Shown here: positions 50,663 through 56,547 of the stretch, piece by piece
Layout: every line of letters starts with the position of its first letter
How positions within the stretch are numbered: position 1 is the stretch's first letter
NCBI GenBank assembly: GCA_020724525.1
Contig: DYGU01000007.1
Coordinates: forward strand, 1-64,000
Length of the DNA: 64,000 nucleotides
Origin: Dehalococcoides mccartyi
GTDB lineage: Bacteria; Chloroflexota; Dehalococcoidia; GIF9; DYGU01
Direction: 5' to 3'
The notes under the pieces: model-generated
What the model was told of the DNA's origin: nothing
The model's input: only the letters and a program-made list of their open reading frames with translations
The model's database searches: none
Translations under genes and position numbers: made by a program

Positions 50663-51766
50663 TTAAGCCAGTTTATCTACATTGCCTTCTATTGCCCCCA
50701 GTTCTCTAAGACCATCACCATTTATCTCCAGCCTATAGCCTCTTAGACCAAAGGAGTTTTCCATTAGATATCCCCTTAACCTGGCAATTTCTTTAGCCTC
50801 CTCACCAGATGTTTTTTGTTGGACTTTGATTAAAATTCTGTCTACTTTATCAACTTCACCCCCGATGCAGGCTTGATATATTTCCCTGGCAAGCTCAGTG
50901 TCTACTGCCTGGACAAGAGCTCTTTTCAAGTGAAACCGGCTCAGCTCGTAGATGCCACCAAAGAGCTGAGCCCCCTCCTTTATCCAGGGGGCACCATCAC
51001 CACCTACTATTACCCTCCCCACCTTAGATAGGTCATATTTTCTAGCCAGAGCCAGGGAGAAACCTTCCCAGAATCTATCCCCATCCATAATCCCGGTATA
51101 AACTGTCTTTTCTTTTACCCGATATCGGTCTTTACTCGCCTTTTCCCAGCCTTCATAGGCAATACCAGCTTTTACCTCAACCCGTTTTGCTTCTTCCCTC
51201 TGAAGGGCAATATTTGTACCATCAGCTTCAACAAAAAGATAAGGGAGTACTTTACCCTCGGTCTCCGGGATTACCCCACCTTCATAGACCTCTTCTATCC
51301 CTTTTTCCTCCTGTTTCAGATAGGGGTCAATAACTTTGGCTACAAGGTGATGAATTGAAGTGTGGGAGATGCCTGAAGGAAGTATTGCCCTCAGGATTTC
51401 CTCAGATCTCTGGAAAGGGAAATGGCTGGAGATAAAAGTTGAAAGCTCCTTTACCTCAGGGCTTACATGACAGCCTTTATCCAGTCCCATCCTCTCATCC
51501 AGGAGGAAACGGTACTCACCATTGTTATCCCGGTATAGCCTCCGCTTTATCCTGATATCACCGAAAACTGTGATTATTCGGTGTTCTCTCAAGCCTTCTA
51601 CCTTAAGGTTTTGGTCTTTCTCCTTCATCAGCTCTTCGTCTACACCTTCCAGTAACACTTTAGTTATCTCCTGGGCTAAACTACAAGCCCGGTTAAAGAT
51701 TTCCTCTTCCCACCTCCCCACATCCCCCTTTAGTTTTACTTGAAGTTTATCTATACTTTCCATCAA
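50663..51766 (-). mobile_element. ISLre2 (UPF0236) family transposase, C-terminally truncated
   Basis: EHRIITVFGDIRIKRRLYRDNNGEYRFLLDE; ends at LGAIEGNVDKLA, where family members continue. Confidence 0.8.
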
Positions 51767-51869: not shown

Positions 51870-52266
51870 CCTTCAAATGAGTGTCGCAACGAATGGACAG
51901 ATACATCTCAGTTATTGCTGCTCTTCCTTTTGCATGATGGAAAATTTGCTGGACTGTCCGCTCTGAAATTGGGATAGTTTGAACCACGCTTGGCTTCTTT
52001 AACACCCTATTGTATTAGGAATTTCAGAGACTCACCGCCTGACCGTAATAAACTCTGGAAACCTTCTCCTTTTCAATCAAGTGAAGTAAATACCCTTTGA
52101 TGCCTTCTTCACATAGCTCATCGGGAGTCTGTATGAAATGATGAAGATGGCGATTGATATGGTGCAGATAAGCCTTTCGGGTCCTGGGGCTATGTCCCTC
52201 AATTTCAGCTCTCTCTGCATCGTTCAAAGTTCTCTCTCTTCGCTTTTGAAATTCTGAGAATTGCAA
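51870..52266 (-). pseudogene. Tyrosine recombinase/integrase remnant, copy 1 (N-terminal SAM-like domain, frameshifted)
   Basis: HSPRTRKAYLHHINRHLHHFIQTPDELCEEGIKGYLLHLIEKEKVSRVYYGQAVS, then shifted LKFL..NRVLKKPSVVQTIP and IFHHAKGRAAITEMYLSIRCDTHL. Confidence 0.75.
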
Positions 52267-52361
52267 AAGAGGGTCTATGTCTACTTGTTGTCCGGCAAAA
52301 ACCGATAGGATTTCGCTTAGAATTTCATCAGAGTATGGAACAATGCAGAACTTTTTTGTGA

Positions 52362-52431
52362 ATGCTATTTGCTACCTTCAACAGCCTTGATTTTTGCCAC
52401 ATGAGCCGGGTTTGTATGGGAAAGTAATCGT
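52362..52431. repeat. ~70-bp direct repeat, copy 1 (5' flank of integrase remnant)
   Basis: ATGCTATTTGCTACCTTCAACAGCCTTGATTTTTGCCACATGAGCCGGGTTTGTATGGGAAAGTAATCGT; about 90% identical to 54708-54776. Confidence 0.85.
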
Positions 52432-52570
52432 GCCTAAAGAAAACGAGAAAGACCTGGAAGAGGTTCCGGAGCATATTAAAAGTGAGCTCCAGTTCATTGT
52501 ATTGGACAGTATTGACCAGGCTTCGGAAGTCGCCCTCAAAGTCCCTGAAGAAGCCAAAAGGTGGATTTAA
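52400..52570 (+). pseudogene. Lon protease C-terminal fragment
   Basis: YGKVIVPKENEKDLEEVPEHIKSELQFIVLDSIDQASEVAL resembles the Lon C-terminus. Confidence 0.75.
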
Positions 52571-53251
52571 TCTTTATCCACGGCTCCAGTAATACCAAAG
52601 AAGTCTGGTATTATCAGACTACTTATTTCCCTGATTCTGAAGCCATTAATCTCCCCGGACATCTTCATGAGGGTCAGCCTAAAACCAGTGTTGATGATTA
52701 TGGGGAATGGTTGCATGAGTATATTCTGAAGTAAAGTTACAAAGAGCCAGTTTTAGCCGGTCATTCTTTAGAGGGGCTATTGCTCAGACTTATGCTTTAA
52801 AATACCCTGATAGCCTGAAAGCTCTTATATTGGTGGCTACTGGTGCCCGACTGCGTGTCCATCCTGATTTCCTGGCGGTGATAGCAGCCGGAATAGCCGA
52901 GCCCTCAAAATGACTTAAAGAATTTGTTGAACCGTTATATGCCAGAGTTCCTCTGGAGCTCAGAGCGATAGTGATAAAGAAAGTAATTGAAGTTGGTGTG
53001 ACTGTCCCGCTTAACGATTTTCAGTGCTGTGATAAATTTGACATTATGGACAGAGTTCATGAAATTAAATGTCCCACTCTTATTTTTGTAGCACTGATGA
53101 TAACCTGACGCCGGTAAAATACAACCAGTATTTAGCTAATAAGATTGCCGGTGCTCGTTTGGTTGTCATTGACGGTGGCACTCACTTTGTCTTCATAGAA
53201 AAACCCGATGAAGTCAACCGGGCAATAGACAAATTCTTACAGACTCTGTAG
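52561..53251 (+). pseudogene. Alpha/beta hydrolase pseudogene
   Basis: VDLIFIHGSSNTKEVW...LAGHSLxGAIAQTYALKYPDSLKALILVATGARL...TDDNLTPVKYNQYLANKIAGARLVVIDGGTHFVFIEKP with multiple in-frame stops/frameshift. Confidence 0.85.
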
Positions 53252-53341: not shown

Positions 53342-53423
53342 GCCTAACGGTATCGGTATAAAAGAAGTTCGGCAAAGCCGAATTTGAACGGAGCGGAGTG
53401 AAGTCTTTTACACCGTGTTAGGT
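53342..53423 (-). other. attC-like (integron recombination site-like) imperfect hairpin
   Basis: Minus strand: ACCTAAC (RYYYAAC) ... CGGTGTAAAAGA / TCTTTTATACCG ... GTTAGGC (GTTRRRY), 82 bp, loop hairpin TTCGGCTTTGCCGAA. Confidence 0.55.
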
Positions 53424-53465
53424 GAAGTCATGGACGAAAGGGATATTCTCCACTTTCCCAAACTG

Positions 53466-53639
53466 CTACTGCAAAGGTTTCCCGCATAATGGGCATGATG
53501 TCAGTGTTGGTCCAAATAATTGTCGGAGAACTCCACTCCCATAAACGCATTCTGCACATATAAAGTGTGTATTAGGACAGACTTTTCCTCCATAAACATC
53601 CTTTTCTTTACCGCAAGCATCGCATTTTCTCTTTGGCAT
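53466..53639 (-). CDS. 57-aa CxxC zinc-ribbon/RING-like small protein
   Basis: MPKRKCDACGKEKDVYGGKVCPNTHFICAECVYGSGVLRQLFGPTLTSCPLCGKPLQ; 13 bp after the TPR gene stop; not in supplied ORF track. Confidence 0.65.
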   Translation of the reverse strand: MPKRKCDACGKEKDVYGGKVCPNTHFICAECVYGSGVLRQLFGPTLTSCPLCGKPLQ

Positions 53640-53652
53640 CTTTGAACTCCTT

Positions 53653-54480
53653 TCACTTTAGCCATCTTCCAAAGCGGTCAAGAAATCTGCCTTTGGGCAA
53701 TTGTTGCTCGATCTCGGTAAGATCTTTCTTTGCTTCAGCAATCCAATAATCTCCTAATTCTTTCTCCTCCTCTTGTAAAACGCCCCGATGAGGATGTGAA
53801 GAGGCCAATAAAACCTTCTTGAGTTCCTTGGCTGCCGAAGTAATGTCCCCTTTCTCCCTATATAGCTTGCCCAACTTATATCCACAAACAAGTTCTCCAA
53901 TCGTAGGTGGCTCGTCTGGACTACGAGATTCGTGACGTTCTACTATTTTGAGACATTTTATGGCATACTCTATATCACGCGTAGCCCAAAGGTCCCCGAG
54001 CAACAAATACAAAAAGGCTATTTGGGGGAAGTCCTTTAACAAGTATAATGCATCGTCTCTCTTTCCTTTTTCTCGCAACAAGTCGCCAAAAACCGTGCGA
54101 GGAATTGGAGTCGTCATGAGATCTCTTAACATGCCCACTTTAGCTACATTCTTCTTGAGATCAATTCTATCTTCAAGGAAATCCATATACGCTACAAACT
54201 GCTCATGGCTTTCTTTACCTAGGACAAACCTCTGTAATTCTTGACCTGATAGACCTATAATCTTACCTATAGCCTGCCTAGCACGAAGTAGCTCTTCTTG
54301 AGCCTTTTCTAAATCCCCTTGTTTGGCATATATATGCATCAGAAGACCATAAACAATGGCTTCCTCAACAGGGTTGAGTCTTGCCTGAACTGCACTCCTG
54401 CACTTTGTTATCACTTGAGCTGGATTCTCGACTCTTTCAAATGAATTCAAACATTCAAAAAAGAGCTGTTCTGTCTCCAT
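53653..54480 (-). CDS. TPR-like repeat protein of unknown function
   Basis: Helical repeats (YGLLMHIYAKQGDLEKAQEELLRAR; YKLGKLYREKGDITSAAKELKKVL); GGAGGT RBS upstream. Confidence 0.7.
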   Translation of the reverse strand: METEQLFFECLNSFERVENPAQVITKCRSAVQARLNPVEEAIVYGLLMHIYAKQGDLEKAQEELLRARQAIGKIIGLSGQELQRFVLGKESHEQFVAYMDFLEDRIDLKKNVAKVGMLRDLMTTPIPRTVFGDLLREKGKRDDALYLLKDFPQIAFLYLLLGDLWATRDIEYAIKCLKIVERHESRSPDEPPTIGELVCGYKLGKLYREKGDITSAAKELKKVLLASSHPHRGVLQEEEKELGDYWIAEAKKDLTEIEQQLPKGRFLDRFGRWLK

Positions 54481-54580
54481 TTTTTATCACACCTCCTACA
54501 TGTACTGTCTCACCTGGAGTTTTATCCCCTCGTCCACAATTTCGCCTAACTTGTGCATAACCCGCACTGCGCTTATTTTT

Positions 54581-54707
54581 CCATTTTAGCTTCATTCTAT
54601 CTAACCAGCTTTGAAGTTTCCCCAGCATCTTGTTGGAAATGTGGGTATAAACTTCTGTTGTCTTGCTACTGTTATATCCAAAGAACACTCCAATACTTCT
54701 GTTTTGG
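54581..54707 (-). pseudogene. Tyrosine recombinase/integrase C-terminal remnant, copy 2
   Basis: GYNSSKTTEVYTHISNKMLGKLQSWLDRM resembles the LGHSSSKTTEIYTHVS motif with catalytic Tyr. Confidence 0.75.
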
Positions 54708-54776
54708 ATGCTATTTGCTACCTTTAACAGGCTTGATTTTCGCTACATAAGCCAGGTTGTATGGGAAAGTAATCGT
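54708..54776. repeat. ~70-bp direct repeat, copy 2
   Basis: See 52362-52431. Confidence 0.85.
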
Positions 54777-54942
54777 TATTCTCCCCACCATTCCCCTGCT
54801 GATTTTTATATTCGCTCTCATTCGTGTCTTCAATATACCCAGCTCCTGGAGATTACACAATCCGCTCCATTGTTTAATACCCAAGGCATTCTGGGGGCTT
54901 CGCCTCTTACGTAATCGCTTTGTGGATTGATAAGGAGATACC

Positions 54943-55682: not shown

Positions 55683-56547
55683 ATGAAATATTATGGCATA
55701 GACATCCACAAAAAGTATAGTGTTTACACGCTTATCAATGAGGAAGGTGTGGTTCTGGAAAGAGGAAAGATAGCTAATGAACCAGAGGCTTTTGCCAGAG
55801 TGATGAACCACTCAACCGAAAAGGCTAAAGCAGTTATTGAAGCTATCGGTAACTGGTATTACATCCATGACCTTTTAGAAGAACTGATAGAAGAAGTGTA
55901 TGTAGCTCATCCCCAGCGTACTAAAGATATTGCCTCAGCCAGGGTGAAAACAGACAAAGTCGATGCTACTACTTTAGCCCAACTACTACGAACCGACTTT
56001 ATCCCCAAATCCTTTGTCCCTTCCCGTGAAGTCAGGGAACTAAGGGAACTTTTGAGATATCGAGCTTCATTAGTGAGGATGAGGACAAGGATAAAGAACA
56101 AAATTCATGCTCTACTTACTAAAAATGGGCTTAAGCATCCATTTAGTGACCTATTCGGCAAAGCTGGCAGGAAGTGGCTTACCAATCTGGAGTTAAGACC
56201 GGTATATCGTAATGCTCTTGAGGGATATTTACGCATCCTTGATGTATTAGATAGAGAAATCCTTCCAGTAACCCGGGAGATAAATGCCAGAGCCCCGGCT
56301 AATCCTGGAGCCAGGCTTTTAGTCTCAATTCCAGGAATTGGGCATTGTACAGCGCTACTTATCCTCCTGGTTAAGGTGGATATTGACTGAGTCGGCTTCT
56401 ATTGCAGCCCGCTATCCAGGAAAGTTACAGAGGTTCCGTCAGAAGGTATCAAGAAGGCATGGAGCTAAGACGGCAAACATTGCTCTGGCAGAGAGAGATA
56501 TTAAGGATAGGTTATTACCTACTAAAGAAAGGAGAGAGGTACCATGA
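55683..56547 (+). mobile_element. IS110-family transposase remnant (premature stop, internal deletion, frameshift)
   Basis: MKYYGIDIHKKYSVYTLINEEG (DEDD domain), LLVSIPGIGHCTALLILL, then RRHGAKTANIALA and out-of-frame EILRIGYYLLKKGERYHE. Confidence 0.85.

Follow-up and report, generated by a model that had tools for sequence, protein, structure and literature searches.

The locus

The window, a 64,000-nt stretch of Dehalococcoides mccartyi DNA, carries on its minus strand a two-gene unit bounded by putative recombination sites and flanked by the remains of tyrosine recombinase genes (Table 1). Read along that strand, a wrecked recombinase gene (copy A) is followed by the core heptamer GTTAGGC (54550-54544), a gene for a protein with weak TPR repeats, a gene for a small CxxC protein, and an attC-like hairpin. 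Beyond the hairpin come a hydrolase remnant on the opposite strand and then a second wrecked recombinase (copy B, from 52434 to about 51835). The two ORFs, the hairpin and both GTTAGGC heptamers were located on the minus strand where the earlier note had placed them, and its description of a captured cassette lying between two R' cores, beside tyrosine-recombinase remnants, is borne out.

Table 1. Features of the cassette locus, with positions counted from the start of the window.
Feature	Position	Strand	Evidence or remark
TPR and CxxC cassette, 1,202 bp	53348..54549	-	crossover assumed at G^TTRRRY on both sides; R' core at each end
Cassette gene 1: 275-aa protein with weak TPR repeats, AGGAGG-like RBS	53653..54480	-	several TPR models match, none reaching its Pfam cut-off (E 2e-4 to 1e-2)
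Cassette gene 2: CxxC-motif protein of 57 aa (zinc-ribbon/RING-like)	53466..53639	-	zf-RING_5 and Zn_ribbon_8, E about 1e-3, below cut-offs; judged from sequence
attC-like hairpin, 82 nt	53342..53423	-	covariance model, 100.6 bits
attI-like site, GCGCAGTGCGGGTTATGCACAA followed by GTTAGGC; cassette insertion point	54544..54572	-	matrix and nhmmer
Recombinase copy A, wrecked	54599..54880	-	tblastn with the L125 recombinase: 58% identity over residues 4-67, 46% over residues 339-375
Recombinase copy B, pseudogene	51961..52434	-	46% identity over L125 residues 37-195, E 1.7e-39

In copy A the middle has been deleted: what remains is the HARP-like domain of the N-terminus (about 54878-54687), interrupted by a TAG stop, and, fused to it, the C-terminal tail (54709-54599). 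Copy B retains its N-terminal and SAM parts and contains two TGA, one TAG and one TAA; the frameshifted remainder of its catalytic part may extend to about 51835. As for the cargo, no relatives of the TPR protein were found in 61 other genomes of the class, and the fact that a TPR protein is paired here with a small protein likely to bind zinc weakly hints at a regulatory or protein-binding role.

The surroundings contain other broken or mobile genes. The hydrolase remnant between the hairpin and copy B is a broken alpha/beta-hydrolase-like gene (52561-53251, plus strand). Immediately downstream of copy B lies a UPF0236-type transposase ORF (50663-51766, minus strand; PF06782, E 3e-38), and this spot looks like a mobile-element hotspot. 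A frameshift-split transposase-like ORF (55683-56547, plus strand; IS110 type by eye) lies upstream of a run of housekeeping genes. The sequence directly after R' (53341-53329, minus strand; about CGTGTGAA) is similar to what follows the hairpins of L026 and L027, making three loci in two genomes, and is possibly a common outer flank.

The hairpin begins with R'' (ACCTAAC, 53423-53417) and 1 nt, followed by a 12-bp stem (CGGTGTAAAAGA at 53415-53404 pairing with TCTTTTATACCG at 53365-53354, with one G.T pair). The stem encloses an inner hairpin (TTCGGC-TTT-GCCGAA, at 53382-53368), and a 5-nt spacer (53353-53349) separates it from R' (GTTAGGC, 53348-53342). The element is palindromic with cores fitting RYYYAAC and GTTRRRY, and the same cores are found across the site family described below. 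When the single strand was folded, as the earlier note had proposed, it beat its shuffles by a modest margin (z about -2.3 with DNA parameters), and 5-6 of 200 shuffles did as well. The frequency of the GTTAGGC heptamer was set aside as uninformative, with 4 occurrences in the window against 7.9 expected. The case therefore rests on comparison with other genomes. An Rfam search returned no family at the gathering threshold, with no attC match among the Rfam families. The genome itself has this one site only, with no second window-type hairpin, and no strain with an empty insertion site was found.

Hairpin and insertion sites in the class and other phyla

A DNA search of the class (396 genomes) with the hairpin recovered relatives in nine of them, each adjoining different genes; these include HicA, HicB, a PIN-type toxin, an MNT/HEPN pair and an SbcD/SbcC-like pair. 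Among ten hairpin relatives, 12 of 25 pairs had changed on both sides (0 of 500 shuffles). The occurrence of relatives beside unrelated genes elsewhere, together with this covariation, places the hairpin above chance. A covariance model built from these ten hairpins, all from the window's class, found about 110 sites in 35 of the 396 genomes, with MAG fragments among the material. Some of the sites form arrays; in one (G271:C98), six of them face the same way over 3.4 kb, separated by short ORFs. Copies of the hairpin beside unrelated ORFs, the test that the earlier note had set for itself, were found many times over.

The architecture of these sites is regular: of the 54 that were measured, 37 show spacers of exactly 1 nt on the R'' side of the stem and exactly 5 nt on the R' side. 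In these the stem is unbroken, usually 12 bp long and without extrahelical bases, and its sequence is unrelated from site to site. One hairpin (L031, 9881-9970, minus strand; genome G127) has non-complementary arms, as if chimeric.

To look beyond the class, we scanned a GTDB genome collection once with an intact recombinase of the associated type (from locus L125), which gave 80 named loci. The covariance model applied to them had been built from the window's class alone, so that other phyla were not in it. Leaving aside L160, the Dehalococcoidia contig corresponding to G271:C98, it located 34 sites (E ≤ 0.01), spread over 15 loci from other phyla. All 34 sites lie on the recombinase strand and 33 lie downstream of the gene. 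The hosts comprise Atribacterota, Nitrospirota, Nitrospinota, Aminicenantota, Bacillota, a deltaproteobacterium, Altarchaeum (Altarchaeota), a Micrarchaeota MAG and a Methanoperedenaceae archaeon. A scan by structure only gave the same polarity: 208 kb of downstream sequence yielded 23 palindromes of this kind and 387 kb of upstream sequence (both strands) yielded none, and the longer spacer was always on the R' side. A degenerate pattern scan was uninformative. Contigs also end within 400 bp downstream of the recombinase in 29 of 78 cases, versus 9 upstream, an excess of the kind that repeat arrays would produce.

In Bacteroidota loci, longer repeated palindromes of the same plan lie downstream of the recombinase; these arrays were assessed visually and in the structural scan rather than with the covariance model. 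In six of them (L193, L194, L210, L215, L226 and L235), repeated palindromes of about 130-160 bp recur every 0.6-4 kb behind the recombinase. These loci include the isolates Arundinibacter roseus and Arenibacter arenosicollis, and in some of their recombinases the N-terminal domain is duplicated or triplicated.

The upstream boundary of the cassette is a different kind of site. The earlier note had taken GGGTTATGCACAA followed by GTTAGGC for an attC half site; it corresponds instead to a separate, attI-like type of site that follows recombinase genes and that about 20 loci share, some 60-140 nt 3' of the recombinase stop codon. This site has an inverted repeat (e.g. ATATACGAC..GTCGTATAT), a short AA-rich link and the core GTTAGGC, often followed by GAAAT. 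With a matrix made from 21 attI-like sites of other loci, the window's own site being excluded, window position 54572 ranked first of 127,924 positions (22.5 vs 12.5 for the next), and nhmmer gave the site an E-value of 3e-4 (vs 1.8 for the next). Given both results, we assign the upstream boundary to the attI-like site.

Entire gene units are also common to different families, with ends that fall at R' or no more than about 10 nt away from it. Such units are shared between G141 and G127 (671 bp, 91.5%), between G189 and G141 (2.8 kb, 78%), and between Atribacterota and the window's class (2.2 kb, 79%). A general test of alignment ends against R' gave no significant result (20 observed, against a mean of 6 and a maximum of 38 with rotated sites), and these shared units are therefore examples only.

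These distributions bear on two other explanations. The hairpin might be a small mobile repeat of the MITE or REP type, moved by a transposase, with the intervening genes incidental. A conserved palindrome of about 85 nt in many copies would suit such a repeat, as would the IS transposases nearby in the window, such as the UPF0236 ORF. However, the copies keep one orientation, sit between short ORFs downstream of one recombinase family and never appeared upstream in the structural scan; their stem sequence varies freely while the architecture is kept, and whole gene units ending at R' are common to families. We consider a mobile repeat very unlikely, and rejected it on orientation, downstream-only position and free stem variation. 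Alternatively, the hairpin could be a transcription terminator or an operon RNA element whose core matches arose by chance; the last stop codon is 43 nt upstream of it, and the heptamer is not rare. Yet there is no Rfam match and no typical T-run, the R cores are conserved with G^TT, the same site family accompanies different genes in different phyla, and an attI match lies upstream. This is the least probable of the alternatives, and we dismissed it as contradicted by the cross-phyla sites, the attI rank and the downstream-only structural scan.

The recombinase family and classical integrons

One type of tyrosine recombinase recurs near the hairpins, usually upstream, co-oriented and mostly broken, and its fragments adjoin hairpins in seven other loci of the class. 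Strong recombinase matches were found in 8 of 35 hairpin-bearing genomes, compared with none of 45 hairpin-free genomes; the 27 hairpin-bearing genomes without a strong match may reflect fragmented MAGs, decay or supply in trans. One further match, in G184, is a shorter relative without the extra N-terminal domain. The L125 locus (genome G035) encodes an intact 380-aa recombinase, with a single cassette and a single hairpin after it. In the otherwise intact recombinase genes of L070/L160 (G271) and L131 (G279), a TAG occurs at the same position, which we provisionally took as shared decay rather than readthrough or recoding.

The L125 recombinase scores 234.4 bits in two stretches against the IntI model TIGR02249, below the curated cut-off of 265, and 232.4 bits against XerA_Arch (NF040815), above the cut-off of 220, with 188 against XerD. 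All 24 family members tested matched NF040815 (E ≤ 1e-5). A TIGR02249 search of the window's own genome gave weak matches only, as it did in all 14 controls. By sequence and by fold, the best solved-structure relative of the L125 recombinase is IntI4 of Vibrio cholerae (2A3V), although the alignment is split in two and the insert region is absent from the query. The distance from KDR to HxLRH is 100 residues in four IntI proteins but 58-63 in about 70 family members, and the IntI-specific insert (about 41 aa; I2 region, patch III) is hence absent from the new family. In a tree, the Xer sequences form a separate branch (100/100), and the new family is nearer to IntI than the Xer sequences are. 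The four IntI included fall among the new recombinases, as a long branch with weak deeper support. A plasmid and phage search returned only catalytic-domain relatives, at less than 60% identity.

The new recombinases also have an additional N-terminal domain of about 75 residues. PF07443 (HARP) matched 3 of 24 members (best E 2.6e-4), and the sole PDB match to a profile of the domain was 4o66 (SMARCAL1 HARP, E 7e-4); structural support is weak, with Foldseek matches at best E about 0.1-0.2. The designation HARP-like is tentative.

True IntI genes (above the TIGR02249 cut-off) occur in 8 of the 396 genomes of the class, and the sites beside them (L075, L080) are classical: each arm has a spacer of about 5 nt, and the L stem is interrupted. 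All known attC sites are considered to share the spacer and the extrahelical bases, to which a role in recombination and in the choice of strand is attributed (PMC2727003). 

The new family does not typically show this combination of an unpaired central spacer of about 5 nt in both arms with extrahelical L-stem bases (PMC2727003). The integron reading of the earlier note therefore stands for the captured cassette but not for a classical integron, since the recombinase lacks the IntI-specific insert and falls below the TIGR02249 cut-off, and the hairpin lacks classical spacers and extrahelical bases.

A classical remnant would be an ordinary attC recombined by an IntI whose gene has since been lost, i.e. 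a single-attC CALIN. The R'' and R' cores do fit RYYYAAC and GTTRRRY, true IntI is present in the class, and three IntI genomes (G174, G215 and G287) also carry sites of the window's family (R1-type). However, the recombinase remnants in the window belong to a non-IntI family, the attC beside IntI differ in look, and the covariance model had no matches at 32 IntI/Xer loci; on these three grounds we rejected a classical remnant, which we regard as improbable. Besides, an IntI match at 1e-40 is absent from 32 of the 35 genomes with R1-type sites. G174, G215 and G287 belong to one family, and in G174 and G287 classical attC sites adjoin the fragments of IntI. This family seems to harbour two cassette systems side by side, and the IntI of these genomes could be using the new-type sites there.

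A probable integron-like platform and its possible mechanism

The family combines a recombinase, an adjacent insertion site and a co-oriented array with one site per cassette, and the window has the decayed form of this arrangement with one cassette. Like integrons (IntI/attI/attC), it has a tyrosine recombinase by an insertion site, co-oriented promoter-poor cassettes with palindromic RYYYAAC...GTTRRRY sites, a cassette content rich in toxin-antitoxin genes, and both array-bearing and decayed (CALIN-like) forms. Unlike integrons, its recombinase has a HARP-like N-terminal domain and no IntI-specific additional domain, its hairpins have the 1/5-nt spacer and an unbroken 12-bp stem, and its attI-like site, a dif-like inverted repeat, follows the 3' end of the recombinase gene, whose reading direction the cassettes share. 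XerA, XerC and XerD belong to the same superfamily, and the attI-like core looks dif-like, but Xer proteins have neither the HARP-like domain nor cassette arrays, and branch separately. Archaeal integrons have been described from archaeal MAGs, with attI downstream of the recombinase gene and IntIs stated to have the IntI-specific domain (PMC9668308). The archaeal recombinases found here (L168, L175, L176 and L180) are alike in MAG source and downstream attI but lack that domain. Our search of the published literature, with preprints outside its scope, found no description of a HARP-bearing cassette recombinase.

We conclude that the window probably holds a decayed copy, with a single cassette, of an integron-like platform for gene capture ("HARP-integron"), whose recombination we infer. 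The anatomy recurs across phyla, with co-oriented sites, recombinases missing the IntI-specific insert and a distinct hairpin architecture. In such a platform, the HARP-like-domain tyrosine recombinase, the attI-like site and cassettes each ending in an attC-like hairpin would all run in one direction. As in integrons, one strand of a hairpin would fold on itself and be joined by the recombinase, at G^TTRRRY, to attI in its double-stranded form, and the asymmetric bulge (1 nt vs 5 nt) would mark strand and orientation. The HARP domain of SMARCAL1 recognises branched DNA, and the HARP-like domain may here replace the role of the I2 helix of IntI. In the window, the TPR and CxxC cassette would have been captured at attI and the recombinase would have decayed later. 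As both recombinase copies are dead, the cassette is presumably frozen, unless a recombinase acts in trans.

In the accepted view, IntI gained single-strand recombination via the I2 helix, and Xer proteins are its closest relatives; direct proof of the I2 role is lacking, as deletion of I2 kills IntI1 (PMC7790495). If our reading is right, attC-type cassette capture is possible without the I2 insert of IntI. The role of I2 also becomes directly testable, because the new family is nearer to IntI than Xer is and has no insert, yet lies beside attC-like arrays. More tentatively, and with somewhat more doubt than confidence, we suggest that these recombinases may form a second widespread integron class, in bacteria and archaea, in which I2-less enzymes recombine folded hairpins; IntI would then have branched from within it, so that single-strand cassette recombination would predate I2. 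IntegronFinder work found integrons to be rare in Bacteroidetes, with many CALINs (PMC9024848). The new platform would be a source for IntI-less attC clusters (CALINs) where integrons are reputedly rare, such as in Bacteroidota, and would provide a gene-exchange route common to bacteria and archaea.
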